Source: Porphyra umbilicalis (lineage: Eukaryota > Rhodophyta > Bangiophyceae > Bangiales > Bangiaceae). From it: 64,000 nt of DNA. Shown piece after piece: positions 1-21,815 of the stretch (its first letter is position 1; every line of letters begins with the position of its first letter). The stretch is taken from positions 219,596-283,595 of the forward strand of contig KV918830.1 of NCBI GenBank assembly GCA_002049455.2, written 5' to 3'. The translations under genes and the position numbers were made by a program. A model generated the notes under the pieces. The model saw only the letters and a program-made list of their open reading frames with translations. It was not told the DNA's origin and did no database searches.

Positions 1-1440
1 GCGACCTCAAGGCCAATATTGATGAAAGCACCAATGCTTTGCTTTTCCGGTACAAAAACCTCACTGTTTCGAGCTTCCTGAAGAGCGTGAACGACGCCAG
101 TGTGACCTTCGTTCGAAAGGTGAGCGCTGCTGGCCACGAGAAGGCGATAATGGGTCCTGGGAAGCCTCACACAGCTGATGTGTACTATGCGTTGGACTTG
201 TCCCCTGAAAATGAGGGCGGGTGCAGCAGGAGTCTGGAAGATCCCGCGGGCAAGGCCAGACTGGGCATGTCCTTCCCCACCGCCAAACTGCAGAACCCGC
301 GAACCCTGAACCATCATAGTATGCTCGCGGCGGGGTCAACATGTGAAGGCGTCAACACCAACTTTCTGTACATGGGAACCATGGGATACTTCTTCAGCTG
401 GCACGTAAAGGACAGCCTGCTCTTGTCCGTAGCGTACTTGCAGACCGGGGCGAGGAAATACTGGTTCTTTGTGCCCAGATCCGAGCGCCCCCTGATGGTG
501 CGCGTTCTGAAAGAAGACATGGACCCAGACGTGCTGAAGGCTGCTGGAAGAGATGCGTGGGCGGTTCTAGCGAAGAAGGCCGTGTTGTGACCAACTACTT
601 TCTTCCTTTCTCACAGAATAAGAGCTGGGTTCGACGCAATGGAGGTCGGGGACTATGTCGTGACTGGCTACAGGGTGCCCCACAGTGGATTTAACTCAGG
701 TAAAAACGTGGCGTCGGCTGTGAATCTGGCGTGTACTGGCTGGCTTTCCTATGCAATCGAGCACGCGGCGCAGTCGCGAGGAAAGTTGGCGATCCTCATC
801 TCATTTGGGAAGCCGTTGGTCTTGGCCGCTATGAAGCTCGTTGATGGAGAATGGTGGGTCGGCGATGCGAAGACCTACGAAGCTTGCGACCCAGCCGAGT
901 TCCGACCGGGACCTCCGCGTGATGGTGGCCTACCTCACGCAGTACCTCAACCGCGTCCTGGCGTACATGAAAATCGATGCGCACCGTACTTGCGTTAGCA
1001 AGACGCCAACAGTCATGACACTCGATCGCGCTCCACAGCTTGTGCAGAACCTCGTTGCTGACAAAGCTGTCGGCACGAATGGGGACCCCCTGGAGATTAC
1101 AAGTGGGGATGCTGCAATGGTGACTGACTACTCAGTAGACAGCGCGTCATGCCCCCACTGCGGAAGAGTGGCTTGGCTCTCCGTGGTTGTCTGCTAGAAG
1201 TGCAATGAGGAGCTGAGAGATGAAGCAGCTAAGTTTGCGCCTTTTTTCTGCTTGGAGTGCGCGCCAGATGTATACGATGGCGAGCACGACCGACTCCGCA
1301 AGACTCCGCTACCAGGGACCCAATTCGTGGATGCTCATGTCCCTCTTGTGGTACAGCGACTTGCCAATGGCCGCGTGTCCTTGATGGTGGAGCACCTGAA
1401 GAACATTGTGGCGGTTGATGGGGAAGAAGGGAGGTCGTAA
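1..1440 (+). pseudogene. JmjC-domain protein pseudogene (copy A, 5' end off the window)
   Basis: The reading frame aligns along its length with the intact JmjC gene at 15648-17783. The iron-binding region is altered: intact WHAED reads WHVKD here (about position 400), so the Glu of the HxE pair is replaced by Lys. The frame is broken by TGA at 588-590 (TGG in the intact copy), a frameshift near 905-910, and TAG at 1195-1197 (CAG in the intact copy). The zinc-binding CPHC...CxxC region is still readable around 1150-1210. The gene ends at 1440, followed after the inserted element by the convergent transposase remnant. It cannot make a full protein and has probably lost JmjC chemistry. Homology to copy B is certain; the product class rests on the JmjC motif. 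Confidence 0.85.
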
Positions 1441-1662
1441 TGTGGCCGAAGAGTTTTTTTCGGCTGGTGTTTATTGTCTTTTTTTGAGACCTTGAATCTT
1501 CTTTGCAGTGGGCGGAGGGCCGATAATATGCCCTCTTGTGCGCAACATGCTGTCTGCATTCCCTTCTCATGGCAATCTCAGGCACTTTCTTCGTTTCCGA
1601 CAGATCGCACAAGCGACGAACGAAAAAGAATCAAAGCAGTGGAAGGCTATGCCACTGACTAG

Positions 1663-2721
1663 TGTCTATTCTACCATGAGTGCGACTCAATTGAGCCATC
1701 CCTTTGACTCATTTGAGTCTCAACAGAAATCGTCGATCCCAGCGTTCCTACATATGAGAATGGCCGATTTGGTGCCTACGAACTGACGTCGATGCGCTTC
1801 CAGAGAAAACTAGGGGGTGCCAAACCACCGGCTCCAGCTCCACGGAAGGGCAACCCCCTCAGCCCGATGTCTACAGAAAGAAACAGTCTTGAACGCACCA
1901 GGAAATCCTATTTTGATGGGTCCGACGTCGACCCTCCGCTCCCCCCCCCCACCAGATGGCGAGAAAACGGCGATTTCATCTTGCAAATGCCAGTGCACCG
2001 AGCCCTGTCGACCTCGCCGGTGACCCTTTGCTCTCGCTCCCTGCAGTGGATAATGGCCACCGCGGGCTTGGACGGCTGTTGGTACACCCTGCTGATACTC
2101 TGAACACTACAGGAACTGGCAGCACCTCGACCATTGGTGGATTGAGTGGCCCTAAAACAGAGGGTGGTGGACGCCACAGGCCAGCCTTCGTCCCGCTCCG
2201 CCCCTCTCCCCTCACCGTAAATTACCTCCCCATGTGTTCACAATCTCTTGTCTCTGGGGCTCTCAGACCGCCCTCATGGTGTTGCTCGCCTTTTAGGACC
2301 ACCTGTCCCCCCCCTGCCTGCATTCGTGCTCGCTGCCCCTGGAAGGGAAACCACCACGTAGGAGGTTGAGAAGATGTGGGAAACAGGCTCATCTGTAGAT
2401 GCTGCGTGGTCCGTGAGTCTGCCTGGAGTGTTTCCGAGCTTCAGGGACGGGGGCACAGCAGAAAGCGACGAACTGGAGACAGCCTGCTGCCCTCAAGGCG
2501 GACGCCCTGGACGCGGAAAAAGTTGGCGCTTCCATGCGTCCTGAGGAAACTTGACTGTGAGTTCAAGCTCGGGTCGTTCGCCCAAGACTGAATAGCCACC
2601 GCTAAGACCATTTCCGTCGTCAGAATCGGCGTCTGACGAACTGTTCGTGCACGAGAGACCTCTCAAAATGCGACTCAATTGAGTCTTTGCGATTCAATTG
2701 AGCTATCTGGTAGAATAGACA
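1663..2721. mobile_element. 1,059-bp non-autonomous DNA element with perfect 14-bp terminal inverted repeats
   Basis: The ends are TGTCTATTCTACCA at 1663 and its exact reverse complement ending at 2721. The flanks are CTAG at 1659-1662 and CTAG at 2722-2725, whereas copy B has one CTAG at this site (18002-18005), so this is an insertion with an empty-site comparison inside the window. A palindromic motif CTCAATTGAG recurs just inside both ends. Because CTAG is itself a palindrome, the duplication could be CTAG with 14-bp repeats or TA with slightly longer repeats. No convincing transposase frame is present, so it is a MITE-like element of unassigned superfamily. Confidence 0.85.
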
Positions 2722-4974
2722 CTAGCCAGTCTTAAGATGAGATCCTGACCTCTTTGAGAACAGTACCTCGTGCTGACCACAGGGCAGCACGAATGCTACC
2801 TGCGGCACATGATGAGCTCGGGTCATCGCGACGCCAGCTTCTACGTCGATTGATACCAGCACGGGCTGTCCTAGGATAGAGAGCGCCATCGGTGGTAATT
2901 TCCACTTCTCTACGGCGACGTGTAGCGCTCCGTCAATCGCTCCAATGAAATGCACACGAACTAATAGCTGGCATCAGAATCCGTCGCTTCGGATCTTGAT
3001 TATTTTGAGCAGCCCTCTTTCTCCTCAGAAACGGATCAATAATGATATGTGTAAGTGCGTGGCCTTCCCGTAGAACGCTAGGACAGCATTAGGGGCCTGG
3101 CGTCCCCACAACTCCTCAGTAGAAGATCGTACAGTGTGCAGGGCTTTCTTCGGACGCCAGGTCACGTCGAAAGCAGACGAGAGTCACCCGTGTGGAGCTA
3201 GTCTGTGGAACTGAACAGTCTTCAGGGGCTTGCCACTCCAGCAGCCACGACGCAGGAACCTCATATTCGTCTGGCATTAAAAGCGGTCTCTAGAAGTGCT
3301 CGGTGTCCCTCCATCTCTGCATGGAGTACTCAGCGGGGTTCCGGCTGTTGCTCTGGCTTACCTCCTGCTTTGCCAGTTGGTGAAACTTTTCGAAGATCAG
3401 CTCTCACACTGCTGGACCGAGCTGCACAAGAGGTAGCGTGCGGTACAGAAGCTTCAGTAATTTGTGAACTGCCGGGCCATTGGATGCACAATATCGCATC
3501 TTGTGCAGTGCTGAGTATTTCTAGGGCCAACGGAGTTTGAGCACGTGGCAGCTATGGGGAAGTCGAACACACCGAGGCACAAGTTCACCCTTACAACCGT
3601 ATTCTCGCGCTTGAACGCGTCATACGCGGCGACACCGTCGCTGTTCATTCGCAGAGCATCATCCACGACACGCCTGATCAGAGCATCGGAGTTCGCTCCT
3701 GATGGCAGGTAGAAGAATGGTCGAACGGAGAATGCACAATCTTCCAATGATAAAGATGTATAGCCCCCATAGTACCCTTCCAAGCTCCCTCGACGTCTCT
3801 TGAACACGTTGATTTCATCTCCGTACAGAGATACATATAGAGTGTACGGATCCTTCTCTGGGAGCACATCGTTCGTTTGTTCAGCCACCTGGGACAGCTC
3901 TAGAGGCTGCAACTCTGTCAAAGCCGACCAGGAATCCTTCTCACGCTCGTCTGAACCCCGCACATCAATGACAAAAACTCCTCCGGACCGGTTGAACCTT
4001 AGCGTTAGCCTCCGATCGGCCATGAAGCACGCAGCCCAGTGCTCAGGGGGCTCGACGCCAGGAAAGACTTCGAAAAGCGCTGTCATGTATCCAACTCTGA
4101 GCGTACTCTGACGAGCGTACGTTGATTCTTGGATGGGAACATCCCCATCGGGGGCAATGGCAGTGCTCTCCAAGCGGGCTTGAAGCGACGTAGTGCTGTA
4201 GAAGAAGATTTTGACAACACAGTCAATGTCATACCTGTTCCCAGCACGGAAGAAGGCAATCTGGAAGCTAAACCGAGCAGGATCTCTGGCGGCTACGGTT
4301 TGAAAGAACTCTGCGGGACGCTCAACGGTCCCTGCCCCTGAGCCCCCTTTGTTGTGGAACAGCGCTGCCGTGACAGAATCTCCAAAGTCACACTTGATGT
4401 GATCAGAGAACGGAATATATGACACCGTCACGTCGGGGAGTGTTCTTAATGCTTTCCCTTTGCCAACGGGTAGCTTTCGGGTCGTCACATCCCTTCGAAT
4501 AGGCACAGATAGCTTCAGCAGCAGCTTTCGCAGTCTTTGCAGTCGCCACCTCGATGGCCACTTCTCCTTCGGGTTAAAAGAGTTCTTGGCCTCCCGCATG
4601 ACGTCGTAATGCCTGAAGGTGACACGAGCTCTGCCAAAGAGGTACCCGAAGCATAGAAACTCTCCGTGAGAAGTGAACTCGCCAGCAGAACTGTCCTCGT
4701 CACTCGAAATCTCTGTGTCCTCAGAGGGGCATCCTTGCCGCTCAGAGTCCGTCGACAAGGCAACCTCTGCATAGCCATCCGTTGCAGCCGCGGAGGGCAT
4801 GTTTGTTTCGCTAAGAGGCTCAACACGCCCTGTGACGCTGCTGCTGGGTTCCTACACGCCGGTCGTGTCTACTTCAACAGGAGCGGTAGCACTCTGGGCT
4901 TCCATATGCATTAAGTTACCATTGAAAAAATGGAAAAAGGCCGCCCCTCGCGGGCCGCGCCTGCGAAACTTCAT
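2722..4974 (-). pseudogene. Tnp2-like (CACTA/Plavaka) transposase pseudogene, copy A
   Basis: It aligns with the intact minus-strand transposase at 18002-20908. The N-terminal half is readable from the start codon at 4972-4974, with a TAG near 4851 where copy B has GAG. The C-terminal half is joined at about 3480 across a deletion: copy B 18784-19419 is absent, so the frame runs out just after the DIVHP motif. The 3' end meets the inserted element at 2721, and the CTA of the stop codon lies in the flanking CTAG. Key pieces remain, including the SLYGDE segment, the DFP motif and the HCTRCD cysteine pair. A deletion of the core plus stops means it cannot encode an active transposase. Confidence 0.85.
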
Positions 4975-5874
4975 TTATTCGAGCCCCCAGCGAGAGCTGG
5001 CTGCGAGGCGACAGTAGGTGATAGAAGAGTGTCGACGAAAGCAGGTATCGTAGGCAAGCACGGTACTAGGGGCCGAAAAAGGGCACAAGTGGAATCGAAT
5101 CGAGCTCTTGCGGTACGAGTGACAGAGCTCGGCGGTAACAAGAAGTGTGCAACCGGGCGACGAGGCCATCGGGATTGCAACAGGACAGGAAGAGACAAGG
5201 GGATCACGCACAACGAAGCCAAGTCAATCGGTCGAAGGGTAGTAAGAGAGCAACATGCGCGCTTGACAAAATGCAGGACGTCTATGCACGCAAGATCAGT
5301 TTCGCACGTGCCCGCAGTCCAGGTTCGGATACGGGCCGCTGCACTGGCCTCATCTGAGATCTCCCTTAGTCTGGTGACTACCCTCATGTCTATCCATGCG
5401 ACAGGTTCAGAGCATTCGTTAAAGACCATCTTGCTTTCGCGAGGCTGATCGGATGGCAAAGAAGAAGTCAGATCATCCGCCAGATGATCCGACGGTCAGT
5501 TTGGTGCTCGGTCTTTTAATTTTTCCCGCGAACTAACCACCGAGCGGTCCAGGTCCGATCCTAATGTGACCCGCGGAACACTTCTGGAAAACACGGGGAC
5601 TGAAGCGCAAAAATAGTTCCCAGGTCATTCTGACAAAAGGTTCTCTGTCTCATTCTATTCTAGTTGAAGGACCATATCAAGATAGATCCACGAAAGAACA
5701 GGAAGACTATCCTGCTTCGTTCCTGAAATCAGTTCTGGATGATATCAGAAATCAGTTATCGCGACCACTAGGATCGATCTGGCTGCAGTCGAAAAACGAT
5801 CCTTAGAATTTTCCTCAGGAAAGTTCGCGTTTGACACCAGGATTAAATAAGGAAGAGCAAGCAACGCGCTGTGT
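4975..5874. other. Upstream flank of transposase copy A, shared with copy B
   Basis: This 900-bp block has no credible gene. It is nearly collinear with 20909-21815, so it probably holds the transposase promoter and part of the element end. Short GC-rich inverted segments lie just upstream of the start codon. Homology ends at 5874. Confidence 0.5.
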
Positions 5875-8602: not shown

Positions 8603-8603
8603 N
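8603..8603. other. Ambiguous base (N)
   Basis: This is the only non-ACGT character seen in the window. It falls where the PIF1 homology stops, so it may mark a contig join or a collapsed gap. Confidence 0.95.
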
Positions 8604-9748
8604 CCCAGATAATGTAGAGTCGTTACCAGAAACTTCGAGTAACAGACATATCACGGTCGACAAGGGTGACAGGCGCTGTCGAGAGCTCTCCCAGTCAACC
8701 GAGAGTCGTCACAAGCAGCCGAGATCAACAGAGTTATCACGGGCAACCAGGGCGACGGGCGCGGGCAACGGCTGGTCCAGTCAAGAGAAACTCGTCACAA
8801 GCAACCTTCATCAAGAGGCCTCTGACGGGGGCCAGGGCCACGGGACGCGCGGTGCGGAGTCAAAGAGAGATGACGAGGGGTGCGGGACGCACGATGCCGA
8901 GGCAACGAGAGGACAGTGGGACGAGGCCCTGCGGGCACTGGCTCTTCTGAGAGCAATGGCCCCAGTCCGGTGGACGTCCGCGACGGGTCAGTTCTCGTCA
9001 TGAGCTCGCCCCTGAGATACCGCCACGCAGGCGCCAGACCCCGTCCAGTAAATGCATTTGTAGGTCAGGGGGCTCTGCCTTGTCGGGGCGCTGTCGCACT
9101 TGCCGCTGAAGCGCTCGCAAGAGTCCCAGGAGAAGAATTACTATGGCATCCAGTGGCAAGCGCGGACGGCGAGGGGACGCAAGAATCGTGTGGTCCAGAC
9201 TAGCTGCACTCTCTCGCTGGGGGCCCCGGCGTGGATTGATCTCTGTGCAACTACAGACAATTGATGTTCCAATACGTATTTCGCCGCATCCGTCTGGGAA
9301 ATTGCAAACGATCCGCTCCGATCGGTCCGGTCGACGAGATCTCGATTTGACCGGCGGCACCCTCCACCGTGGATCTGCCGCCACACAAACGCGCGTGGCG
9401 CCCGCAGATCCAACGGCCACGGAGGCCACGAGGGGACACCTCGATCGGGCACCGCAAGTGTCCGTCAGACCGTCATATCCCCGCGAACCGTCGAGGCAGC
9501 GCCCCCTCCTCCCCCCGAGCACATGCCACTGTTTGCTAACGCCAGCCGCACCGTCGTCCTACCGCGCACTGCCCCGCATCTCTTTGCCACCCGATCCGCT
9601 GTGGCAACGGCGTGCTCCCTTCACCCCCCGCGTGCGCGCTGTGGGCGTTCTCTTTTCATCATCGTAAGTGTAACCCGCTTGTTCCCCCCCCCCCCCTCGC
9701 CTTCTTCCCCCCCCCCCCCCTCGCCCGCCGCACGCTGTGTCTGGCACC
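8604..9748. other. No gene recognised; poly-C tracts at the right edge
   Basis: Open frames here have no recognisable motifs and shift between frames. Two long C tracts lie at about 9682-9721, just before the 84-bp repeat array. I see no promoter or RNA gene. Confidence 0.4.
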
Positions 9749-10285
9749 ATCGATCACCCCCGAAAGGGTCGACATCGCACGGCACGTGGAAAGGGACGCC
9801 CCCCTTCCACGAGCTCCCCTGAAAAGGGTCGACGCTGCACGGCTCCCCGAAAGGGTCGAGACCGCACGGCACCTGGAAAGGCACGCCCCCCTTCCACGGC
9901 TCCCCTGAAAAGGGTCGAGCTGCACGGCTCCCCGAAAGGGTCGAGACCGCACGGCACCTGGAAAGGCACGCCCCTTCCACGGCTCCCCTGAAAAGGGTCG
10001 ACGCTGCACGGCTCCCCGAAAGGGTCGAGACCGCACGGCACCTGGAAAGGCACGCCCCTACCACGGCTCCCCTGAAACGGGTCGACGCTGCACGGCTCCC
10101 CGAAAGGGTCGAGACCGCACGGCACCTGGAAGGGACGCCCCCTTCCACGGCTCCCCTGGAAAGGGTCGACGCTGCACGGCTCCCCGAAAGGGTCGACACC
10201 GCACGGCACCTGGAAAGGCACGCCCCCCTTCCAGAGCTCCCCTGAAAAGGGTCGACGCTGCACGGCTCCCCGGAAGGGTCGACGA
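9749..10285. repeat. 84-bp tandem repeat array, about six units
   Basis: The phrase CCGAAAGGGTCGA followed by CCGCACGGCACC recurs at about 9849, 9934, 10018, 10102, 10186 and 10272, a period of 84-86 bp. Each unit holds two GAAAGGGTCGA-type sites. All frames stay open because the period is a multiple of three, so the long frames here on both strands are probably artefacts. Tandem motif clusters like this are typical of sub-terminal regions of CACTA-like transposons, which would suit its place left of the copy B gene set, but that link is inference. Confidence 0.9.
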
Positions 10286-10720
10286 ATTGTCATGCCTTCG
10301 TCGCTGTACAACGACCGTCGTTGTGATCCCCCGAAAGGGCGGACCGTACACTGCACCCCGAAAGGGACGGCCAGTTGTGTCATCGGCGTTGTTTGGTCTT
10401 CGTGCACGTCTATCTATCGGCCCTTCGGTCCCCTGAAAAGGCGTACCACACACGGTATCCTGAAAGGGAAGACCTGTAGTCTCATCGGTGTTTGACAGCT
10501 GCTGGCCCGGATCACCATCGTTGAGTCGGTCCCCCCGTGAGGGCGGACTGCGCACAGCACCCCGAAAGGGACGGCCAACTAACCCGAAAGGGACGGCCAA
10601 CTGTGTGATCTATGGTGCAAGGAGCTCGCCACACCGCTACCTGCGTGCTCTGTGGCCTCCCGAAAGGGTTGGTTGTGATTCGCGTCCCGAAAGGGACCAC
10701 GCACTCCCGAAAGGGATTGA
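10286..10720. repeat. Irregular array of CCCGAAAGGG-type motifs
   Basis: After the regular array ends, the same core continues at irregular spacing, for example CCCCGAAAGGGCGGACC near 10330, CCCCGAAAGGGACGGCC near 10360 and 10560, and three copies between 10660 and 10720. It looks like a decayed extension of the array or clustered protein-binding sites. Confidence 0.7.
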
Positions 10721-10783
10721 CGAATCGCGGAGCTACCCGCTAGTACGGGCAACAATCTATCGCTGGCAAGCCACACGCCGGAT

Positions 10784-11377
10784 ATGGATGGGGATCGGGA
10801 CGCGAGCTGGTGCCGTGGCAGCGGTGGCGACCGGAGCGCGTCTGAAGACGCTCCGACTGAGAACGGGCCCAACAAGCGGCAGCGCAACGAGTCCCGGGGC
10901 GCGCAACCTGCGATGTCGCAGGCGCAGGTGCTCCAGGCCGAAGCTGCGCGGGCGCAGCGTGTCGCTGCCCAGATGCGTGTGGCGGCCCGTGCCGCCCAGC
11001 GCGCCGAGGACCTCGCGCGGCGGTCTGCTGTGGGCCCCTCGCAATGTGATGCGGGCCAATCGAGCGGCGACGGTGGTGACGTCGGCCGCGGCCGTGCTCG
11101 CGGCCGCGGAAGATCCAAGAGGCAAAGTCGCGGGGCCGGCTCTCACATGGGCGGCGACGGACCCTCAGAAACTGTGGCAAGCCAAGGTCGCGGCAGACCA
11201 GCACCCGACCGTGATCTGGGAGCGTCATCACGGACCGGATCGGCGCCGGAGCACGGGGCGCGATATCTGCGACCGCCCCGAACCGCGCGATGCGGCGCCT
11301 GCATCTGCAGGGAGGTGGGGTCCCAGATGCTCCTGGCAACGCGGGCGCCAATCGCTGGCGTAACCGGCCTGCAGTAG
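10784..11377 (+). CDS. Hypothetical protein, possible first exon of the large gene to the right
   Basis: The frame starts MDGDRDASW and has an acidic start, a basic NKRQRNE cluster that could be a nuclear localisation signal, an Ala/Gln/Arg-rich helical stretch (AQRVAAQMRVAARAAQ) and a Gly/Arg-rich region. No domain is recognised. The frame is +2 relative to a multiple of three, while plausible coding sequence continues to 11580 in a second frame and beyond 11592 in a third. Introns or frameshifts could join them. Either this is the N terminus of a multi-exon gene ending at 15632 or a decayed relic. Confidence 0.35.
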   Translation: MDGDRDASWCRGSGGDRSASEDAPTENGPNKRQRNESRGAQPAMSQAQVLQAEAARAQRVAAQMRVAARAAQRAEDLARRSAVGPSQCDAGQSSGDGGDVGRGRARGRGRSKRQSRGAGSHMGGDGPSETVASQGRGRPAPDRDLGASSRTGSAPEHGARYLRPPRTARCGACICREVGSQMLLATRAPIAGVTGLQ

Positions 11378-11591
11378 TGTCCGATCGCGCCTCGGTGCAC
11401 GCCGCCAACGCATCTGGCGACGGCGAGCCACGGCCGTCGGCTGCCGCACTAGTGGGAGTGCTGCATGACGCGCGGCGGCCGCTGATTGGGCAATCCACAG
11501 GGGGACTGTCAATGGCCCAGTTGCGGATGGTTCTGAGCGCACTTGAGATTGCCGGTCGACAATTGTTCCCAGCGCAGATCAATCGCGGACC

Positions 11592-14500
11592 ATGCGCAAC
11601 TGCTCCGGTGGTTGCGGCGACGCCGCCGCCCTGGATTCGCTACTGGCGGCGGCTGTCAGGGGGTTCGAAGATGACGTCAGCCGCTCCGCACCCAATGCGG
11701 CCGACACTGCCTCTGTATTTGTGCAGCGTGCCTTGCAGTGGCACGCGTGCAGCGGCGGCTGTTCCAGTGGGCTGCGAGCGACAACGATGCACGAGCCACG
11801 GCCTCGCCCGCTCGAAGCGACTGCCGAGGCCCCAGCCGCACGGGGCGAGCTGCTGCATGCCGTCAGTCCACTGCCGGACCGCGCCGTTGCTGTGCCAGCC
11901 GCCCACGACGCTCCACCGCAATCCAATGTACGCCAGGCTCCCTTGCGAGGCTCCCTGGGACTCACCGCGGGCCTCTCCGCGCCTAGTCCTCGGCCGCACG
12001 ATGTGCCACGACATGCTCACTCGATTGCCCGAGGGAATGCTCGGCCTTTAGCTGCTGGGGAGGCCGTCAGAGGGGATCGCTCACGCCTTTCAACGCAGCA
12101 GCGCTGTAGCGAAGACCTCGTTTACGACGATGACATGACCATTGCCACGGCGAGCCCGGCACGACAGCGAGGTCGACGTCCCTGGCATGCTACCGCCACC
12201 GAGGTGGGCGCATGTCTGCAGCGCCCCCCCCCGCCACGGTTTCCCCGTGAGCCACCTTTTTTGTTTCCTTCCAACGCCTCTCGGAGTGTGGAGCTCTTCC
12301 GAGTTGATCGGATCTCTCTGGCGGAGGGCAATGCGCTCTCGCGGCGCGTGGTGGATGGGCTATTCCTCTGGTTCCTGATGAAGTTTGGCCACGACGGGGG
12401 CTATGGCGGTCTCCGAGTGTTGACCTCCTTGGACGCTGATGACATGGCAGCATCCGTGTGCCGAGATGATCGCCTGGTTGGGCGGGTTCGTGACGCAATC
12501 GTGGACCGGCTGGTGTTCAGCGCAGGCACGACGGTAGTTCCCGTGTGTACGGCTGGTACCTGGTGGGCAATCGTTGTGACGGGTCTGCGGGAGACCGTCG
12601 TACGGGTGGTCGCCTCTGTGCGCTCAGGCGCGGCGCTCTCGGATGAGGCCGTGCCAGGGGCGGCGATGGCTGTGATTGACACCTCGTCGGTCGGCAAGGG
12701 TGAGGGGGGGTGGGACGAGCATGTGGTGACAGGCCTCTTCCGTGCGTTAACGGTGGCCATCTGCACTACCTACCTGCGCACTTGCGACGATTCGCGGAAA
12801 ACTAGGCTCGTCGAGGATGGCCTGCGCGACCTTCTTCCCATCAAGGTGCTCAAGACTCGGGCAGGGGGGCGAGACACGACGGCGGACAACCTGATTGCGT
12901 TCATGGCGATGCTTCTGTCGGCTGAGCCGGGACAAGCAACCCGCCTTCTTCGCGGTCACGACTCGAGCCAATGGCAGAAGGCCCACGCCCCTCGGCGCTT
13001 TCGTAGCCTTGTCCGCCGCATTATCGACGCCCATCGACCAGGTGGTCTTAGGGACGATGAGGAGGAGCCAGCAGAGGAGCTGCTCAATGGTCGTGATATG
13101 TCTGACGAAGAGGAGACGGACGCCGATGACGCAATGCGAGACGTGGACGATGACTACGATGCCGGGGGGTCGGGTGACCGGGCAGGCTACATGAGCGACT
13201 ACCGTGATGGCGGCCGAGATGGCGGCCTCGATGCGAATCCCGGCAGTCGGGTCGAGTCGATGAGTCGACGTGGATCGCATGGGGCCCTCGATGGTGCTCG
13301 TGGTGGTGATGTACGGCGGCGTCGCGTTTCCCTTGGGCGCGTCGTCGGCGACACAGTCGTCGGCCTAGGTGCCACCCATGGTAGGCTCAGCGGCGGCGGA
13401 CGAGGTTCCCACCGCCAATCTGTCGGACATGCGCAAGGTGAACCTGACACCCGAGTTGCTGATGGCATGCATGTGGGTGGTGCTGGCCTTCACTCTGACG
13501 CAGATGCTGCCCGCGCCCAACCCATTGCATGTGCAAAAGGGGCACATGGTCGCCGAGGTCCCGATGCCGCCCGAGAAGATGCTGGTGACTGTTACGCTGG
13601 CAGAGGAGGCCGACGACGGGGACTCGTGCATGGACAAGGTGCAGACGACGACGGCTCTCAACGAGCAGATGCATTGGATGTTCGACAAGCACGCCGTCCG
13701 TCTCCTGAACGTGCGCATGTTCGCGACGATGCTGGTCGTGCCGGTGCTATCGGAAGACATTATGGCAACAGAGGTGGTGACGGCCGCGAAGGAGGTGAAA
13801 GTGCAGGTTGCGACGGCTGGCATGGTGGTGACCAAGAAGATGGACACGGGGTTGGCGGTTGCGACGATGAGCTTGATCAAAGTGGAGGAGATGAAGGCAC
13901 CCATCATGGCAATGGCGCTGACGACCGGCGCCACCAAGCTCCTTGTGCCGTCGCCAGCGCGGGGGGCGGACGCATGGCGCATGTCCAATCAGTCGCATGT
14001 GTGGCGCGAGAGCGTGAAGCCCGAGCTGTACATGGCAACACTGGGGGCGGCGATGTCGGAGGTGCTGTTGACGCCCATCTTCCATATCGCGCTGATCACG
14101 GGCGAGCGCGTGGTGCTCGTGATGACCCACGACCCGGTTCCGATCAAGGTCATCTTGCTGCAGGCGTGCACGATGCCGGCAGCCGAAGCGTTGGACGCGC
14201 GCAACGAGCGCCTGACGCCCGAGTTCTTAGTGCTGTTCGAGGGGGTGGTGAAGGCCGAGGAGGTGGTGACCAACAACATGTCGACGGCGGTGCAATTGGC
14301 AACAATGGAGGTGGCGACGGCGGAGGAGCGGTGGACGCCCATCGTCTCGATGGCGATGAGGACCGGCGAGCCCGTGGTGCTCGTGCTGACCCAGGAGCCG
14401 GTGTCGATCACGGTCATGTGGATGGAGGAGGACATGGTGCCCGCCACCGAAGTGTGGGACGTGCGCAACAAGCGCCTGACGCCCGAGATGCTCATGATGC

Positions 14501-15632
14501 TCGACGAGGTGATGATCAGCGACGTGACGACGGCGTCGCTGGTGGCGACACTGGCGGCGGCGACGGCGGAGGCGCTGTTGACGCACATCGTCCCAATCGC
14601 GCTGATCACGGGCGAGCGCGTGGTGCTTGTGATGACCCACGATTCGGTTCCGATCAATGTCATCTTGCTGCAGGCGTGCACCATGCCAGCAGCCGAAGCG
14701 TTGGACGTGCGCAACGAGCGCCTGACGCCCGAGTTCTTAGTGCTGTTCGAGGGGGTGGTGAAGGCCGAGGAGGTGGTGACCAACAACATGTCGACGGCGG
14801 TGCAATTGGCAACAATGGAGGTGGCGACGGCGGAGGAGCGGTGGACGCCCATCGTCTCGATGGCGATGAGGACCGGCGAGCCCGTGGTGCTCGTGCTGAC
14901 CCAGGAGCCGGTGTCGATCACGATCATGTGGATGGTGGAGGACACGGTGCCCGCCACCGAGGTGTGGGACGTGCGCAACAAGCGCCTGACGCCCGAGATG
15001 CTCATGATGCTCGACGAGGTGATGATCAGCGACGTGACGACGGCGTCGCTGGTGGCGACACTGGCGGCGGCGACGGCGGAGGTGCTGTTGACGCACATAG
15101 TCCCAATCGCGCTGGTCACGGGCGAGCGCGTGGTGCTCGTGATGACCCACGACCCGGTTCCGATCAATGTCATCTTGCTGCAGGCGTGCACGATGCCGGC
15201 AGCCGAAGCGTTGGACGTGCGCAACGAGTGCCTGACGCTCGAGTTGCTGATGCTGCGCGAGGAGGTGGTGCTGGTCGTCGTACCGACGCCGATGGGGGAC
15301 GCGCTGAGGGCGTTTCCGACTCGCGACGGGGTGTACATGGAGGCGTGCACGGCCAGGGAGGTGGGGAGAACCAGGTCGTCCACGGCCAGAGTGGTCGTGT
15401 TGCAGGAGGCGGTGGCGTTCGTGGAGACGGCGGCCAACTAGGTGACAATGGCGAACGTGATGATGACCAGCGACGTGGCGACGGCTCGGGGCCTGTGCGT
15501 GCCACCACGGCTGCGGCGGAGCCTGATGCTGCCAGCTCCTCAACGGAGGGCGCCGGTTCCGTGGCCCAGACGGAAGAGCGGTTGGATGTCGCTGGCCTAG
15601 GGTTTGAACTCCTCGGTTTGGGTCCCGCTTAG
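11592..15632 (+). CDS. Large hypothetical protein with a possible Ulp1-like region and a long repetitive tail
   Basis: The frame is open for 1,346 codons. Residues from about 235 to 500 look like a globular domain. Within it the order LSRRVVDGLFLWFLMKFG, then VPVCTAGTWWAIVVTG, then AMAVIDTSS recalls Ulp1/C48 SUMO-protease folds (LNDxxINFYL, HWxLxVI, DS), but the catalytic HW would be WW here, so this is weak and the domain may be inactive. The C-terminal 800 residues are rich in Gly, Asp, Arg, His and built on a 510-bp DNA repeat. CACTA/Plavaka-type elements often carry Ulp1-like genes, which would fit the neighbouring transposase. It ends at TAG 15630-15632, in the same frame as the JmjC gene starting at 15648. 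Confidence 0.5.
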   Translation: MRNCSGGCGDAAALDSLLAAAVRGFEDDVSRSAPNAADTASVFVQRALQWHACSGGCSSGLRATTMHEPRPRPLEATAEAPAARGELLHAVSPLPDRAVAVPAAHDAPPQSNVRQAPLRGSLGLTAGLSAPSPRPHDVPRHAHSIARGNARPLAAGEAVRGDRSRLSTQQRCSEDLVYDDDMTIATASPARQRGRRPWHATATEVGACLQRPPPPRFPREPPFLFPSNASRSVELFRVDRISLAEGNALSRRVVDGLFLWFLMKFGHDGGYGGLRVLTSLDADDMAASVCRDDRLVGRVRDAIVDRLVFSAGTTVVPVCTAGTWWAIVVTGLRETVVRVVASVRSGAALSDEAVPGAAMAVIDTSSVGKGEGGWDEHVVTGLFRALTVAICTTYLRTCDDSRKTRLVEDGLRDLLPIKVLKTRAGGRDTTADNLIAFMAMLLSAEPGQATRLLRGHDSSQWQKAHAPRRFRSLVRRIIDAHRPGGLRDDEEEPAEELLNGRDMSDEEETDADDAMRDVDDDYDAGGSGDRAGYMSDYRDGGRDGGLDANPGSRVESMSRRGSHGALDGARGGDVRRRRVSLGRVVGDTVVGLGATHGRLSGGGRGSHRQSVGHAQGEPDTRVADGMHVGGAGLHSDADAARAQPIACAKGAHGRRGPDAAREDAGDCYAGRGGRRRGLVHGQGADDDGSQRADALDVRQARRPSPERAHVRDDAGRAGAIGRHYGNRGGDGREGGESAGCDGWHGGDQEDGHGVGGCDDELDQSGGDEGTHHGNGADDRRHQAPCAVASAGGGRMAHVQSVACVAREREARAVHGNTGGGDVGGAVDAHLPYRADHGRARGARDDPRPGSDQGHLAAGVHDAGSRSVGRAQRAPDARVLSAVRGGGEGRGGGDQQHVDGGAIGNNGGGDGGGAVDAHRLDGDEDRRARGARADPGAGVDHGHVDGGGHGARHRSVGRAQQAPDARDAHDARRGDDQRRDDGVAGGDTGGGDGGGAVDAHRPNRADHGRARGACDDPRFGSDQCHLAAGVHHASSRSVGRAQRAPDARVLSAVRGGGEGRGGGDQQHVDGGAIGNNGGGDGGGAVDAHRLDGDEDRRARGARADPGAGVDHDHVDGGGHGARHRGVGRAQQAPDARDAHDARRGDDQRRDDGVAGGDTGGGDGGGAVDAHSPNRAGHGRARGARDDPRPGSDQCHLAAGVHDAGSRSVGRAQRVPDARVADAARGGGAGRRTDADGGRAEGVSDSRRGVHGGVHGQGGGENQVVHGQSGRVAGGGGVRGDGGQLGDNGERDDDQRRGDGSGPVRATTAAAEPDAASSSTEGAGSVAQTEERLDVAGLGFELLGLGPA
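13420..15290. repeat. 510-bp tandem repeat with about 255-bp half-units, inside the large frame
   Basis: The phrase starting CAGGCGTGCACGATGCC recurs at 14161, 14671 and 15181, a period of exactly 510 bp. Within each unit a related sequence (CGCAACGAGCGCCTGACGCC versus CGCAACAAGCGCCTGACGCC) marks two diverged halves; weaker half-units appear near 13430 and 14000. Two forward frames and one reverse frame stay open through the repeat. The alternative forward frame (13369-15441) has much more G/C at third codon positions than the frame of the flanking domain. Confidence 0.85.
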
Positions 15633-15647
15633 CGTCTTGGTGATGCG

Positions 15648-17783
15648 TTGAATAGCTTGGACTCTGCAGACCTCAACATCCTCGCCGGTTTTGCTCCTGT
15701 GACACCATGTCCTCGACACATAGCTGCAGAAGCTGACGGTGGTGGCTCAGCAGAGGCGCGCACGAACGGTCCTAGCCCTGGAACTGTGGTTGATGGCGAC
15801 GCAGAACCGGGCGCCGCTGGCGTCGCAGCCATTCGTGCAGAGCCACGCCCGGGGGCCACTGCAGGCCACCCTGCTGGCGACGATAGCGCTGAGAGGAGGG
15901 AAACAACGCTACGTAGAGCACCTGCCCGCGCCGACAGAGATGCCTGTGGCTCACTTGAGGCATCGCGTCTACGCGAAGTACGGCCAAATGTCGAGACGGG
16001 CACTTTACAGCGGCGTCCGATGGACTTTCACAGAATTCCCATTACTTGTATAAGTACCGTTCCGGAGCTTGGACTGCATGGTCTGATTCGATCCAAGTTG
16101 GCATCGATGCGGACTTCCGGTGCGCACGTGTTCCGAGTGGTTGCACCCGCGGTGCGCCCGGTTCCTAGCAGGGCTCCAAAGCGACTTGTCGGGGACAACG
16201 TCAGGGTTCGCATTCAAAGCTTCCCACAGTTCCCGACAATTGTCAGCGACACGTTCCGTGGTCGCCGTTCTATGGACCACAGCGTGAAGGGCAGAGAGCT
16301 ACAGAACCAGCTGCCAGCTGAAGGCCAGAAGTGGATGTCAGCAAGCCGGCTGAGTGCCAGGATCGAGGAGAGTTCCAACGCCATGATATCCCGGTACAAG
16401 GACCTCACTGTTTCTAGCTTCCTCAGGAACCTGAACGACGCCAATGTGACCTGGGTCCGAGAGGTGACCGCTGCTGGCCACGAGAAAGCGGTGTTGGGTC
16501 CTGGGAAGCCTCACCCAATTGATGTGTACTATGTGTCGGACTTTTCGCCTGAAAATGAGGACGGGTGCAGCAGGAGTCTGGGAGATCCCGCGTGCAAGGC
16601 CGCAGTGGACCAGTCCTTCCCCACCGACCGACTGCAGAACCCGCGTACCCTGAACCATCACAGTATGCTCGGAGCGGGGTCAACATGTGAAGGTGTCAAT
16701 ACCAACTTGCTCTACATGGGAACCATGGGATCGTTCTTCAGCTGGCACGCGGAGGACAGCCTGCTCCTGTCCGTCTCGTACTTGCAGACCGGGGCGAGTA
16801 AATACTGGTTCTTTGTGCCCAGATCCGAGCTCCCCCTGATGGTGCGCGTCCTGGAAGAACACATGGACCCAGACGTACTACAAGCTGCTGGGGGTGATGT
16901 GTGGACGGTTCTAGCGAAGAAGGCCGTTTTGTGGCCAGCTACGTTCTTCCTTGCTCACGGAATCAGAGTTGGTTTCCACGCAGTGGAGGTCGGGGACTAT
17001 GTCGTGACTGGGTACGGGGTTCCCCACAGTGGCTTTAACGGAGGTAAGAACGTGGCGTCGGCCGTGAACCTTGCATGCACCGGCTGGCTTTCATATGCAG
17101 TAAAGCACGCGGCGCAGTGGCACGGAAAGCTCGCAATCCTGATCCCATTTGAGAAGCTGTTGGTGCTGGCCGCTATGAAGCTTGTTGATGGAGAATGGTG
17201 GGTCGGCAATGCAAAAACATATGAAGCTTGCGACCCAGCCGAGTTCCGACGGGACCTCCTCGTGATGGTGGCCTATCTCGACAAGTATCTCGACCGCGTC
17301 CTGGCTTACATGAAAATGGATGCGCACCGTACTTGCGTCGGCAAGACGCCGACAGTCGTGGGACTCGACCGCGCCCCTCAGCTTGTGCAGCAGTTCGTTG
17401 CTGACAATGCTGTCGACACGAAACGGGACCCCCTCGTGATTCCACATGAGGATGCTGCAAAGGTGACAGACTACTCGGTGGACGGCGCGTCATGTCCCCA
17501 CTGCGGAAAAGTGGCTTGGCTCTCCGTGGTTGTCTGCCAGACGTGCATTGAGGAGCTCGGAGAAGAAGCGGCTAAGTTTGCGCTTTTTCGCTGCTTGGAG
17601 TGCGCGCCAGATGTATTCGATGGCGAGCACGATCGACTCCGCAAGACTCCTCTACCAGGGACCCAGCCCGTGGATGCTCATGTCCCTCTTGTGGTACAGC
17701 GACTGGCCAATGGCCGCGTGTCCTTGATGGTGGAGCACCTGAAGAACATGGTAGCGGTTGATGGAGAAGAAGGGAGGTCGTGA
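15648..17783 (+). CDS. JmjC-domain (Fe(II)/2-oxoglutarate dioxygenase-fold) protein with C-terminal zinc-binding region
   Basis: JmjC proteins are mostly histone lysine demethylases or protein hydroxylases. The 711-residue product has an unrecognised, Ala/Arg-rich N-terminal 200 residues. The JmjC core runs from about 345 to 485: LLYMGTMGSFFSWHAEDSLL gives the iron ligands H367 and E369, K385 in GASKYWFFVP is a candidate 2-oxoglutarate contact, and H460 in PHSGFNGG is the third iron ligand. The layout resembles KDM4/KDM5-type JmjC domains. A zinc-binding CPHC (616-619)...CQTC (630-633) follows, with another CxxC near 652. The start ATG at 15648 is the first after the TAG at 15630 in the same frame, so a longer fused protein is possible. 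Activity is inferred from motifs only. Its fixed partner is the transposase. Confidence 0.88.
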   Translation: MNSLDSADLNILAGFAPVTPCPRHIAAEADGGGSAEARTNGPSPGTVVDGDAEPGAAGVAAIRAEPRPGATAGHPAGDDSAERRETTLRRAPARADRDACGSLEASRLREVRPNVETGTLQRRPMDFHRIPITCISTVPELGLHGLIRSKLASMRTSGAHVFRVVAPAVRPVPSRAPKRLVGDNVRVRIQSFPQFPTIVSDTFRGRRSMDHSVKGRELQNQLPAEGQKWMSASRLSARIEESSNAMISRYKDLTVSSFLRNLNDANVTWVREVTAAGHEKAVLGPGKPHPIDVYYVSDFSPENEDGCSRSLGDPACKAAVDQSFPTDRLQNPRTLNHHSMLGAGSTCEGVNTNLLYMGTMGSFFSWHAEDSLLLSVSYLQTGASKYWFFVPRSELPLMVRVLEEHMDPDVLQAAGGDVWTVLAKKAVLWPATFFLAHGIRVGFHAVEVGDYVVTGYGVPHSGFNGGKNVASAVNLACTGWLSYAVKHAAQWHGKLAILIPFEKLLVLAAMKLVDGEWWVGNAKTYEACDPAEFRRDLLVMVAYLDKYLDRVLAYMKMDAHRTCVGKTPTVVGLDRAPQLVQQFVADNAVDTKRDPLVIPHEDAAKVTDYSVDGASCPHCGKVAWLSVVVCQTCIEELGEEAAKFALFRCLECAPDVFDGEHDRLRKTPLPGTQPVDAHVPLVVQRLANGRVSLMVEHLKNMVAVDGEEGRS

Positions 17784-18001
17784 TGTGGCCGAAGTATTTT
17801 TTTCTGCTGTTGTTTATTGTCATTTTTTGGGACCTTGAATCTTCTTTGCAGTGGGCGGCGGGCCATTCATATGCCCTCTAGAGCGCAACATGTTGTCTGC
17901 ATTCCTTTCTCATGGCAATTTAAGACACTTTCTTCGTTTCCGACAGATCGCACAAGCGACGAACGAAACAGAAACAAAGCAGTGGAAGGCTATGCCCCTG
18001 A

Positions 18002-20908
18002 CTAGCCACTCTTGAAATGAAATCCCGACCTCTTGGAGAACAGGACGTCGTGCTGACCACAAGGCAGCACGAAGGCTATCTGCCGCACATGGTGAGCTCG
18101 GGTAATCGTGACGCCAGCTGCTACGTCGATTGCTACCAGCACGGGCTGTCCGAGGATAGAGAGCGCCATCGGTGGTAATTTCCACTTCTCCACGGCGACG
18201 TGTAGCTCTCCGTCAATCGTTCCAATGGAATGCACACGAACGAAGAGCTGCGCATCAGAATCCGTCGCTTCGGAGCTAGGTTCTTCTGAGGAGCCCTCCC
18301 TCTCCTCAGAAACAGAGAGTGTCGACCCTTCTCGGATCACGAATGATCTGTGTGGGTGCGTTGCCTTCCCGTAGAACGCGAGGACAGCATTAGGGGCCTG
18401 GCGTCTCCACAACTCCTCGGTAGAAGATCGGACAGTGTGCAGGGCTTTCTTCGGGCGCCAGTTCACGTCGACAGCAGACGAGGGTCGCCCGTGCGGAGCT
18501 AGTCTGTGGAACTGGACCGCCTTCAGGGGCTGGCCACTCCTCCCAAGCAGCCACGACGCAGGAATTCCATACTCGTCTGGCATTGACAGCAGTCTCGAGA
18601 AGTGCTCGGTGTCCCTCCATCTCTGCATGGAGTACTCAGCGGGGTTCCGGCTGTTGCTCTGGCTTACCTCCTGCTTTGCCAGTTGGTGAAACGTTTCGAA
18701 GATCAGCTCGCACACTGCTGGTCCGAGCTGCACAAGGGGGAGCGTGCGGTACAGAAGCTCCAGTAATCTGTGAGCTGCCGGGCGCTCCCAACTTCCTTCA
18801 AAAGGTACCAGTCGACGTAGCTTCATCATCAACTGCTCACCCAGAACCTGGAGCGCGGCTACAGTCGGGCGTCCTCTCATTGCTTGTTCTCCATCAGAGG
18901 CAAGGGTTGGTAGATAGAAAAAAGATATGGAAAACATGCGCAGAGCTTTGAGAGCACTAAGCGCCGCAAGGGCGTGTGGTGTCGTGGCATCGGTGTGTAC
19001 AAGGTACTGTAGCACCGTGGGGCCCACCGTCAGCAGGACTGCATAGTCAGACATTGACAGAGTTGTGCCACCCATCTTCTCTGGCTCAAGAGACAACAGG
19101 ACGGTGTGAGTTGGGATATGCTTAGCGCTGCGACGCATTTCCCGCATGAACCTGTCGCGCTGTTCAACGGACAGTGCCTCATACGCTTCCATCAAGAGAT
19201 TAGCGCCGATGTTATAGTACAGCAGGTGCGAGGGAGCGACAATAACATGGGAATGTATATCAAAGCTCCCTTCACCACGGGCCTGCTCCAGGCGCATCAG
19301 CAACGTACCACTCTTGTCTGTGATGCCGTTCACCACTCGACAGTAACGAGCGTCCTGGACGTCGACAGACACTGTGCTGCTCATCGCGCGCTCCCTCCTC
19401 TCTGATGTCGTCTTTGGATGCACAATGTCGCAGCATGTGCAGTGCTCAGTACCTCTAGGGCCAACGGAGTTTGAGAACGTGGCAGCCATGGGGAAGTCGA
19501 ACACACCGAGGCACAAGTACACTCTTACAACAGCATTCTTGCGCTTGAACGCGTCATAAACGGCGACACCCTCGCTGCTCATTTGCAGAGCATCATCCAC
19601 GACACGCCTGATCAGAGTATCGGAGTTTGCCCCTGGTGGCAGGTAGAAGAGTGGTCGAACGGAGAATGCACGATCTTCCAATGATAAAGATGTATAGCCC
19701 CCATAGTACCCCTCCAAGCTCCCTCGACGCCTCTTGTACACATTGAATTCATCCCCGTACAGAGATACACATAGAGTGTATGGATCCTTCTCTGGGAGCG
19801 CATCGTTCGTTTGTTCAGCCACCTGGGACAGCTCTAGAGGCTGCGGCGCTGTCAAAGCCGACCAGGAGTCCTTCTCACGCTCGTCTGAGCCCCACACATT
19901 AATGACGAACACTCCTCCGGACCGGTTGAACCTCAGCGTTAGCCTGCGATCGGTTGTGAAGCACGAAGCCCAGCGCTTAGGGGGCTCGACGCCTGGAAGA
20001 ACTTCAAATAGCGCTATCATGTCTCCACTTCTTAGCGTACTCTGACGAGCGTACGTTGATGCTGAGATTGTAACATCTCCATCGGGGGCAATGGCGGTGC
20101 TCTCCAAGCGGGCCTGAAGCGACGTAGTGCTGTCAAAGGAGATTTGGACAACACAGCCGATGTCATACCTGTACCCAGCACGGAAGACGGCATTCTGGAA
20201 GCTAAACCGAGCAGGATCTCTGGCGGCTACGGTTTGAAAGAACTCTGCGGGCCGCTCAACGGTCCCTGCCCCGGAGCCCCCTTTGTTGTGGAACAGCGCT
20301 GCCGTGACAGGATCTCCAAAGTCACGCTTGATGTGTTCAGAGAACGGAATATATGAAACCGTCACATCGGGGAGTTTGCGCAATGCTTTCCCTTTGCCAA
20401 CGGGTAGCTGTCGGGTCGCCACCTCCCGTCGAAGAGGCACAGCTAGCTTCAGCAGCAGCTTGCGCAGCCTTTGCAGGCGCCACCTCGATGGCCACTTCTC
20501 CTTCAGGTTAAAAGAGTTCTCGGCCTCTTGCATGACGTCGTACTGCCTGAAGGTGACACGAGCTCGGCCAAAGAGGTATCCGAAGCATAGGAACTCTCTG
20601 CGAGAAGTGAACTCGCCAGCAGAACTGTCCTCGTCACTTGAAAACTCTGTGTCTTCAGAGGGGCATTCTTGCCGCTCAGAGTCCGTCGACAATGCAACCT
20701 CTGCATAGCCATCCGTTGAAGCCGCGGAGGGCATGTTTGTTTCGCCAAGAGTCTCAACACGCCCCGTGATGTTGCTTCTGGGTTCCTCCACGCCGGTCGT
20801 GTCAACGTCAACAGGGGCGGTAGCACTCAGGGCTTCCATATGCATCAAGTTACTATCGAAAAAATTGAAGAAGGCCGCCCCTCGCGGGCCGCGCCTGCGA
20901 CGCTTCAT
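18002..20908 (-). CDS. Tnp2-like (CACTA/EnSpm or Plavaka-type) transposase
   Basis: The 968-residue frame starts MKRRRRGPRG, a basic nuclear-targeting-like start, followed by an acidic Ser/Glu-rich region (about 60-110). The central part fits the Transposase_21/Tnp2 pattern: LCVSLYGDEFNVYKRRRGS near 380 (first acidic residue), EGVAVYDAFKRKNAVVR near 445, then LGVFDFPMAATFSNSVG near 470 with its Asp, and HCTCCD near 492 (the CxxC). The C-terminal half is helical and ends in an Asp/Glu/Ser-rich then beta-rich segment. It should cut and paste its element in the nucleus. It overlaps nothing and converges with the JmjC gene. The family call rests on motif order, not a database match; Plavaka and CACTA cannot be separated by eye. 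Confidence 0.75.
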   Translation of the reverse strand: MKRRRRGPRGAAFFNFFDSNLMHMEALSATAPVDVDTTGVEEPRSNITGRVETLGETNMPSAASTDGYAEVALSTDSERQECPSEDTEFSSDEDSSAGEFTSRREFLCFGYLFGRARVTFRQYDVMQEAENSFNLKEKWPSRWRLQRLRKLLLKLAVPLRREVATRQLPVGKGKALRKLPDVTVSYIPFSEHIKRDFGDPVTAALFHNKGGSGAGTVERPAEFFQTVAARDPARFSFQNAVFRAGYRYDIGCVVQISFDSTTSLQARLESTAIAPDGDVTISASTYARQSTLRSGDMIALFEVLPGVEPPKRWASCFTTDRRLTLRFNRSGGVFVINVWGSDEREKDSWSALTAPQPLELSQVAEQTNDALPEKDPYTLCVSLYGDEFNVYKRRRGSLEGYYGGYTSLSLEDRAFSVRPLFYLPPGANSDTLIRRVVDDALQMSSEGVAVYDAFKRKNAVVRVYLCLGVFDFPMAATFSNSVGPRGTEHCTCCDIVHPKTTSERRERAMSSTVSVDVQDARYCRVVNGITDKSGTLLMRLEQARGEGSFDIHSHVIVAPSHLLYYNIGANLLMEAYEALSVEQRDRFMREMRRSAKHIPTHTVLLSLEPEKMGGTTLSMSDYAVLLTVGPTVLQYLVHTDATTPHALAALSALKALRMFSISFFYLPTLASDGEQAMRGRPTVAALQVLGEQLMMKLRRLVPFEGSWERPAAHRLLELLYRTLPLVQLGPAVCELIFETFHQLAKQEVSQSNSRNPAEYSMQRWRDTEHFSRLLSMPDEYGIPASWLLGRSGQPLKAVQFHRLAPHGRPSSAVDVNWRPKKALHTVRSSTEELWRRQAPNAVLAFYGKATHPHRSFVIREGSTLSVSEEREGSSEEPSSEATDSDAQLFVRVHSIGTIDGELHVAVEKWKLPPMALSILGQPVLVAIDVAAGVTITRAHHVRQIAFVLPCGQHDVLFSKRSGFHFKSG

Positions 20909-21815
20909 TTATTCGAGCCCCCAGCGAGAGCCGGCTGCGAGGCGATATGAAGTGATAGAAGAGTGTCGACGAAAGCAGGTATCGTGGGCAAGGACGATAC
21001 GAGGGGCCGCAAAAGGGCACAAGTGGAATCGAATCGAGCTCTTGCGGTACGAGTGACACAGCTCGGCGGTAACAAGAAGTGGGCAGCCGGGCGACGAGGC
21101 CGTCAGGATTGCAACAGGACAGGACGAGTCAAGGGGACCACGCACGACGAAGCCAAGTCTATCGGTCGAAAGGTAGTAAGAGAGCAACATGCGCGCTTGA
21201 CAAAATGCAGGACGTCGATGCACGCAAGATCAGTTTCGCTCGTGCCCGCAGTCCGAGTCCGGATACGGGCCGCTGCACTGGCCTCATCGGAGATCTCCCT
21301 TAGTCTGGTGACTATTCTCATGTCTATCCATGCGACAGGTTCAGAGCTTTTGTCAAAGACCATCTTCCTTCCGCGAGGCTGATCGGATGGCAAAAAAGAA
21401 GTCAGATCATCCGCGAGTTGATCCGACGGTCAGTTTGGTGCTCGGTCTTTCGTTTGTTCTCGCGAACTATTCACCGAGCGGTCCAGGTCCGATCCTGATA
21501 TGATGCGCGGAACAGTTCTGAAGAACACGGGTACTGGAGCGCAAAAATAGTTCCCAGGTCATTCTGACTGAAAGGTTCTTTGTCTCATCCCATTCTAGTT
21601 AAAGGACCATATCAAGATAGATCCACGAAAGAACCGGAGGACTATTCTGCTTCGGTCCTGAGATCGTTACTGGATGATCTCAGAAATCGGTTATCGCGAC
21701 CACTACGATCGATGTGGCTGCAGTCGAAAAACGATCCCCAGAATTTTCCTCAGGAAACTTCGCGTTTGACACGAGGATTAAATAAGGAAGAGCGAGCAAC
21801 GCGCTGTGCTGCTGC
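20909..21815. other. Upstream flank of transposase copy B
   Basis: It matches 4975-5874 of copy A almost throughout, except for single-base changes and short indels. No gene is visible. It probably includes the transposase promoter and element end. Confidence 0.5.

Follow-up and report, generated by a model that had tools for sequence, protein, structure and literature searches.

Does a JmjC-type dioxygenase gene that lies tail to tail with a transposase gene belong to the transposon, and if so, what could it do there? The question is raised by a 64,000-nucleotide stretch of contig KV918830.1 from the red alga Porphyra umbilicalis (C70:219596-283595 of an 83.8-Mb assembly; hereafter the window), in which an earlier note had described two copies of a CACTA/Plavaka-like element pairing a JmjC gene with a Tnp2-like transposase gene. 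We confirm that the paired genes are real and that both copies have the tail-to-tail layout; the interpretation placed on them, taken as a whole, is partly supported. All element counts below come from this one genome, and copy numbers are lower bounds, because only part of the search candidates were scored.

The pairing is not confined to the window. Profile searches of the genome gave 105 JmjC matches (112 of 112 candidates scored) and at least 136 Tnp2 matches (150 of 176 scored). The latter fall into two classes according to where the profile match starts (66 or more versus 35 or less), a division drawn post hoc from the table and without a tree. For the class that includes the window transposase, a JmjC match lies no more than 10 kb away in 60 of 69 cases; for the second class the figure is 0 of 67. 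With 105 JmjC matches in 83.8 Mb, about 2.5% of random sites would have one so close, and for the first class chance neighborhood can therefore be rejected. All 60 pairs have the genes on opposite strands, with the transposase downstream at a distance of 2.5-5.7 kb. Because the window region is a nest of repeats, the genes might be thought to have been joined by chance, through adjacent elements, nesting or a tandem duplication, but the uniform orientation and spacing, together with the single termini and duplications around both genes described below, make this practically negligible, and for complete copies it is refuted.

Searches with sequences rather than profiles covered fewer candidates (63 of 164 scored for JmjC and 47 of 306 for the transposase protein). 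With the transposase, 44 of the 47 scored copies were paired likewise and one more had JmjC pieces at the expected place. Among the nine unpaired profile matches, eight 2-kb places were inspected for JmjC: pieces are present at C582, C24 and C358, and C51 has a marginal match of 29 residues. The ninth, C26, has a JmjC match on the opposite strand at a distance of 11.2 kb.

Since termini are found on both sides of both domains, a single set of ends encloses the two genes. An alignment of copies defined the termini of family 1 as CACTGCGTGCAGG..GCAACGCGCTGTG, and a genome-wide search allowing up to three mismatches, for which a reversed control pattern gave no match, located nine left and 13 right ends and eight copies with both. 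Seven of these eight complete copies hold JmjC and Tnp2 domains; six are 14.5-16.6 kb long, and the one on C415, at 30 kb, probably holds an insertion. Related termini mark family 2, whose JmjC shows about 59% identity; 23 left ends, nine right ends and eight copies with both were located, a JmjC match being present in 8/8 of these copies and a Tnp2 match in 7/8. In 15 of the 16 complete copies, JmjC is thus inside the ends rather than excluded by the terminal repeats, and the idea that one set of termini bounds both genes is borne out.

The terminal inverted repeats are short and imperfect (CACTGCGTG / CACAGCGCG in family 1; CACTGCGTG / CAC(G/A)GCGAG in family 2) and have the CAC..GTG form of CACTA/EnSpm elements. 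Exact 2-bp target duplications flank 11 of the 16 complete copies (5/8 in family 1, 6/8 in family 2), with chance probabilities of 4.5e-5 and 1.5e-6 for the respective families if equal base frequencies are assumed, and 3-bp duplications flank none; the copies on C16 and C391 have a common right flank and are therefore not fully independent. A host gene that happens to lie beside a transposon is ruled out by the termini, the target duplications and the co-divergence described below.

The description of the second gene as a Tnp2-type transposase is upheld. In copy B, the second of the two window copies, its frame matches Pfam Transposase_21 at 33.3 bits (cut-off 28.6); the PF02992 match is above the cut-off in copy L058 and below it in L061 (24.3 versus 28.6). 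The protein has 985-995 amino acids in the other seven aligned copies. In the numbering of the 995-residue L058 protein, D386, D471, C490, C493, H628 and E765 are present in 8/8 copies and H624 in 7/8, with the spacings C490xxC493 and H624x3H628; the D, H and E were assigned by eye, and we take them to be catalytic or zinc residues. The transposase profile had no match among PDB sequences, and NCBIfam had none for either the transposase or the JmjC protein. Target duplications in the wider CACTA/EnSpm clade are short, at 2-5 bp. By its transposase, termini and short duplications, the element is a CACTA/EnSpm (CMC) DNA transposon. The motif definition used for the residue assignment is that of Kojima 2025 (PMC12730594). 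According to that paper, fungal EnSpm families have CAC..GTG termini and 3-bp duplications, Plavaka elements end in TGT..ACA or CATCA..TGATG and also include 2-bp duplications, and the transposases of the two groups are similar to each other. The first half of the label "CACTA/Plavaka-like" is therefore sustained by the transposase and the ends, whereas the Plavaka termini are not matched, although the 2-bp duplications would fit Plavaka too; Plavaka was set apart by its published terminus description, not by comparison with Plavaka sequence.

The two genes have also diverged together. Across eight copies, the JmjC and transposase distances are correlated (r 0.90, a value reached in 3 of 20,000 permutations) and the trees of the two genes agree in topology; among the JmjC sequences used, two were partial or contained stops. 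For JmjC, the median ratio of nonsynonymous to synonymous divergence (dN/dS) is 0.52 for pairs with dS <0.05, 0.37 for dS 0.05-0.15 and 0.14-0.22 for dS >0.15, where the pairs are not independent and 7 of 435 with dS <0.005 were left out; for the transposase, one recent pair gives 0.82, and values between lineages are 0.08-0.165. Both genes are thus shown to be under purifying selection between families, and the combination of high recent and low between-lineage ratios suggests selection in active lineages followed by decay after insertion. It might be supposed that the JmjC gene was captured once and is a functionless hitchhiker, for which the recent-copy median of 0.52 could be cited, a value that many dead copies would give; the between-family medians, the agreement of the trees and the retention of the gene at near-saturated dS make such functionless hitchhiking very improbable.

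What kind of protein is retained? The JmjC piece of copy B scores 58.1 bits against Pfam JmjC (cut-off 24), and both profile and structure searches accept JmjC. The domain is real, but it is not a stand-alone gene as first described: in other copies it forms the C-terminal portion of ORF1, a far longer open frame of about 2,180-2,570 codons. Of 65 genomic matches, the 30 with the highest scores were compared: the iron ligands H367 and E369 are present in 30/30 and H460 in 28/30, so that the full set of ligands reported for copy B holds more widely, and the reported zinc-binding tail is recognizable by pattern as six cysteines in three CxxC pairs. The lysine position, to which we ascribe a 2-oxoglutarate-binding role as in KDM4, is K in 11/13 sequences of a wider alignment.

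The predicted structure of the module aligns with JMJ14 over model residues 26-606 and with JMJ13 over 25-607 in VIA comparisons, and identity to JMJ14, JMJ13 and KDM5-type demethylases is about 17-20% over these alignments. A JmjN part packed on JmjC, with a zinc finger after it, is visible by structure only (model mean predicted local distance difference test score, pLDDT, 66); Pfam gave no match to JmjN or zf-C5HC2 in the module. No TET/JBP profile is among the Pfam matches, and the element does not qualify as a TET/JBP transposon. The C-terminal part of ORF1 is, as modeled, a JmjN-JmjC-zinc module of the histone-demethylase type.

The histone substrate cannot be read from the fold or from the structural ranks. 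In VIA, JMJ14 with an H3K4me3 peptide, rice JMJ703 and KDM5A head the ranking, in which differences of up to 1 Z unit count as ties, and KDM4 is less than 2 Z units behind; JMJ13 is the best match both by sequence and in Foldseek, which also gives many KDM5 entries. One alternative is accordingly that the JmjC part strips an active mark, H3K4 methylation, either to restrain the element itself or to shut down competitors or host genes in its neighborhood. The top VIA rows are all H3K4 enzymes and the KDM5 entries point the same way, but JMJ13, an H3K27me3 enzyme, leads by sequence and Foldseek, and with KDM4 so near we regard this alternative as unlikely, if still one to be reckoned with.

The note had recognized the JmjC and transposase genes and had missed two further components. 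One is a domain of the SENP/Ulp1 (C48 protease) fold within ORF1 that does not have the His-Asp-Cys triad: in four families, the H site is T/G/V/L, the D site D/N/D/N and the C site N/H/N/R, the sites having been set by eye from what we take to be the SENP motifs. The other is a conserved third gene near the left end of the element, for a protein of approximately 270-280 amino acids of no recognized kind. Among PDB sequences, the Ulp1-fold profile yielded one chance-level row, and neither the ORF1 middle piece nor the third gene had a Pfam match. CACTA elements need a second protein, and TnpA is an accessory protein of transposition. ORF1 could likewise be mainly a DNA-binding or structural accessory, with a dioxygenase chemistry that is secondary or directed at a non-histone protein. 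The Ulp1 fold seems to be kept without its triad in 4/4 families, which makes a dead-enzyme adaptor plausible in the same protein; the near-invariant iron ligands of the 30 copies and the conserved 2-oxoglutarate lysine run counter to such a role, and we think it rather improbable.

On balance, we favor the view that the element is an autonomous three-gene CACTA/EnSpm transposon, mostly 14.5-16.6 kb long, and that ORF1 is its own chromatin factor, easing silencing. ORF1 would act on the chromatin of element copies; its Ulp1-fold part may serve for docking to a partner, SUMO-like or otherwise, and the JmjC part would remove methyl groups from histones near the copies, and this demethylation would most likely ease silencing or access, allowing the transposase to be expressed and active. 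We lean towards relief of silencing since TET/JBP, VANC/KIU or SET genes are found on related transposons (PMC12730594, PMC13317346), but H3K4 demethylases match the structure just as well as those for H3K27 or H3K9. The note's idea that the module lifts repressive marks is conjectural. A fuller version, in which a CACTA lineage made a host histone demethylase a fixed part of itself, fused to a dead SUMO-protease-fold adaptor, for anti-silencing at the histone level, is put forward tentatively and may well not hold.

Several observations weigh against this chromatin-factor view. Over all Tnp2 matches, only 60 of 136 are paired with JmjC, because the second class of 67 has no such partner; JmjC is thus a fixed partner within the class of the window transposase, where most copies have it, whereas most transposase copies are without it when every Tnp2 match is counted. 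Within the right class, no JmjC was found in the 2-kb expected places of C76:119768, C95, C109 and C173. A 4.9-kb copy (C7:520134-525003) has both termini and no JmjC or transposase match, and is possibly a non-autonomous derivative, and five of the 16 complete copies have no exact 2-bp duplication. The dN/dS of JmjC is above that of the transposase, and constraint is weaker again in the Ulp1-fold domain (0.20-0.44 between families). Both predicted ORF1 models are of moderate confidence (mean pLDDT 62 and 66). Finally, H3K4 is the substrate of JMJ14, JMJ703 and KDM5, and removing methyl groups from it would rather favor repression.

The probable source of the module is a host demethylase gene of the kind present on C344. 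Four JmjC genes (C263, C30, C344 and C31:313400) were classed as host-like because of their scores and the absence of a partner, and three were inspected; the gene on C344 (L074, C344:4811-5173) scores highest of these with the element profile, the alignment covering JmjC and the cysteine tail, which suggests that such a host gene was captured. In all, eight of the 45 JmjC matches without a partner were inspected. Distant JmjC genes at 29-39% identity are present in the genome, and fragments of one such type adjoin a transposase of the element's class on C24. A divergent group of 29-33% identity (L067, L068, L069 and L070, on C173, C212, C164 and C90) has no Tnp2 match within 10 kb and is perhaps another transposon lineage. 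Viral contigs scanned with both alignments gave no relative.

In the window itself, the element is present twice as described, but both copies are damaged, and copy A begins outside the window. The extent of 1..21815 first given is replaced by right ends at 5873 for copy A, whose damaged set spans 1-5873, and at 21808 for copy B. Judged by their frames, both look decayed; in copy B, ORF1 is split into pieces and the transposase is without 27 codons kept by the other seven aligned copies. Approximately 2.3 kb are missing from the left end of copy B relative to complete copies, and its homology begins just past a single N, so that the left edge is probably an assembly join.

Table 1. Parts of the two element copies in the window, with positions counted from its first nucleotide
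Feature	Position	Strand	Basis or remark
Copy A, ORF1 C-terminal part (JmjC region), broken	1..1206	+	gene start outside window
Copy A, JmjC domain, one in-frame stop	363-725	+	JmjC profile match
Copy A, transposase remains	2721..4973	-	end 4973 inferred from offset to copy B
Copy A, Tnp2 (PF02992) domain	3469-3699	-	profile match
Copy A, right terminus, ending ..GCAACGCGCTGTG	5849..5873	+	terminus search
Single N	8603	.	homology to complete copies begins directly after
Copy B, left-truncated element	8604..21808	+	mostly 97-98% identity to C4 and C64 copies
Copy B, ORF1 N-terminal piece (MDGDRDASWC..)	10784..11377	+	open reading frame
Copy B, ORF1 middle piece, 1346 amino acids	11592..15632	+	open reading frame
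ORF1 SENP/Ulp1-fold domain without protease triad	12231..13094	+	structure model and alignment
ORF1 in-frame repeats, 264 and 246 nt alternating, 510 nt together	14033..15352	+	repeat search
Copy B, ORF1 C-terminal piece, 711 amino acids, predicted JmjN-JmjC-zinc type module	15648..17783	+	
Copy B, JmjC domain	16710-17069	+	JmjC profile match
Six-cysteine tail, three CxxC pairs	17493..17603	+	zinc-binding type by pattern
Copy B, transposase, 968 amino acids	18002..20908	-	Transposase_21 match
Copy B, Tnp2 domain	19424-19636	-	profile match
Copy B, right terminus AAGGAAGAGCGAGCAACGCGCTGTG	21784..21808	+	

The window also holds other features. A PIF1-like helicase frame at 7347-8612 (+; PF05970, 90.3 bits), probably a piece of a Helitron or similar element, crosses the N at 8603. 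Segment 5874-6173, which begins exactly past the right end of copy A, recurs at 31176-31475 (88% identity), and 6808-6964 recurs at 32113-32269 (90%), each about 25.3 kb away. Two frames resemble Harbinger-type proteins by eye: that at 5745-6299 (-), whose sole Pfam match is weak and unrelated, looks like the N-terminal part of a transposase, and that at 29487-30905 (-) like a DDE nuclease with long Gly/Ala repeats after it. Ty3/Gypsy-like polyproteins, also identified by eye, lie at 42265-46197 and 50945-54294 (+), the first seemingly chromodomain-terminated, and the segments 52672-54499 and 62165-63992, each 1828 nt long, are inverted copies of each other with 89% complementarity.

Among the papers listed in an open-access literature search, the titles and abstract openings describe no JmjC gene inside a CACTA/EnSpm element. 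Transposons bearing DNA-demethylating or SET enzymes are already known. If the chromatin-factor view is true, the silencing arms race extends to histone demethylation by a cut-and-paste element. The families, complete copies and intact frames, that of C16 among them, make the anti-silencing idea testable, and the JmjC-less second Tnp2 class provides an internal control in the same genome.

The nearest parallels include the fungal EnSpm, Plavaka, ESTA and KDZ transposons that carry TET/JBP genes (PMC12730594). They share with the Porphyra element a broad transposase clade and a 2-oxoglutarate/iron dioxygenase thought to counter silencing, and in EnSpm also the CAC..GTG ends; however, the TET/JBP enzyme oxidizes 5-methylcytosine in DNA, whereas the Porphyra element has a predicted JmjN-JmjC module in frame with a Ulp1-fold domain, and the duplications are 3 bp in fungal EnSpm versus 2 bp here. 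The SET-carrying HarbingerS and MuDR elements of Phytophthora likewise bear a histone-modifying enzyme, but it is a methyltransferase, in other transposase superfamilies, rather than one of demethylase type (PMC12730594). In plants, the KIU/VANC genes of Vandal transposons also combine a transposon-borne Ulp1-type domain with a tie to anti-silencing; Vandals are Mutator-like elements, and the available part of their description mentions no JmjC (PMC13317346). The dead Ulp1-fold domain and the Ulp1 domain of these plant genes hint at a common theme of SUMO-linked targeting. In Amoebidium, endogenized giant viruses are inserted mobile DNA that has likewise acquired and multiplied a JmjC gene, KDM4-like in this case (Sci Adv 2024, PMC11244446); these genes comprise the catalytic domain only and lie in giant-virus insertions, the Plavaka-flanked giant repeats of that genome being described as a separate class (PMC11244446). 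With JMJ14, JMJ13 and KDM5, the predicted module has the JmjN-JmjC-zinc architecture in common along nearly its whole length, and it differs from them in its setting, within a transposon frame that also contains a Ulp1-fold domain and long repeats.
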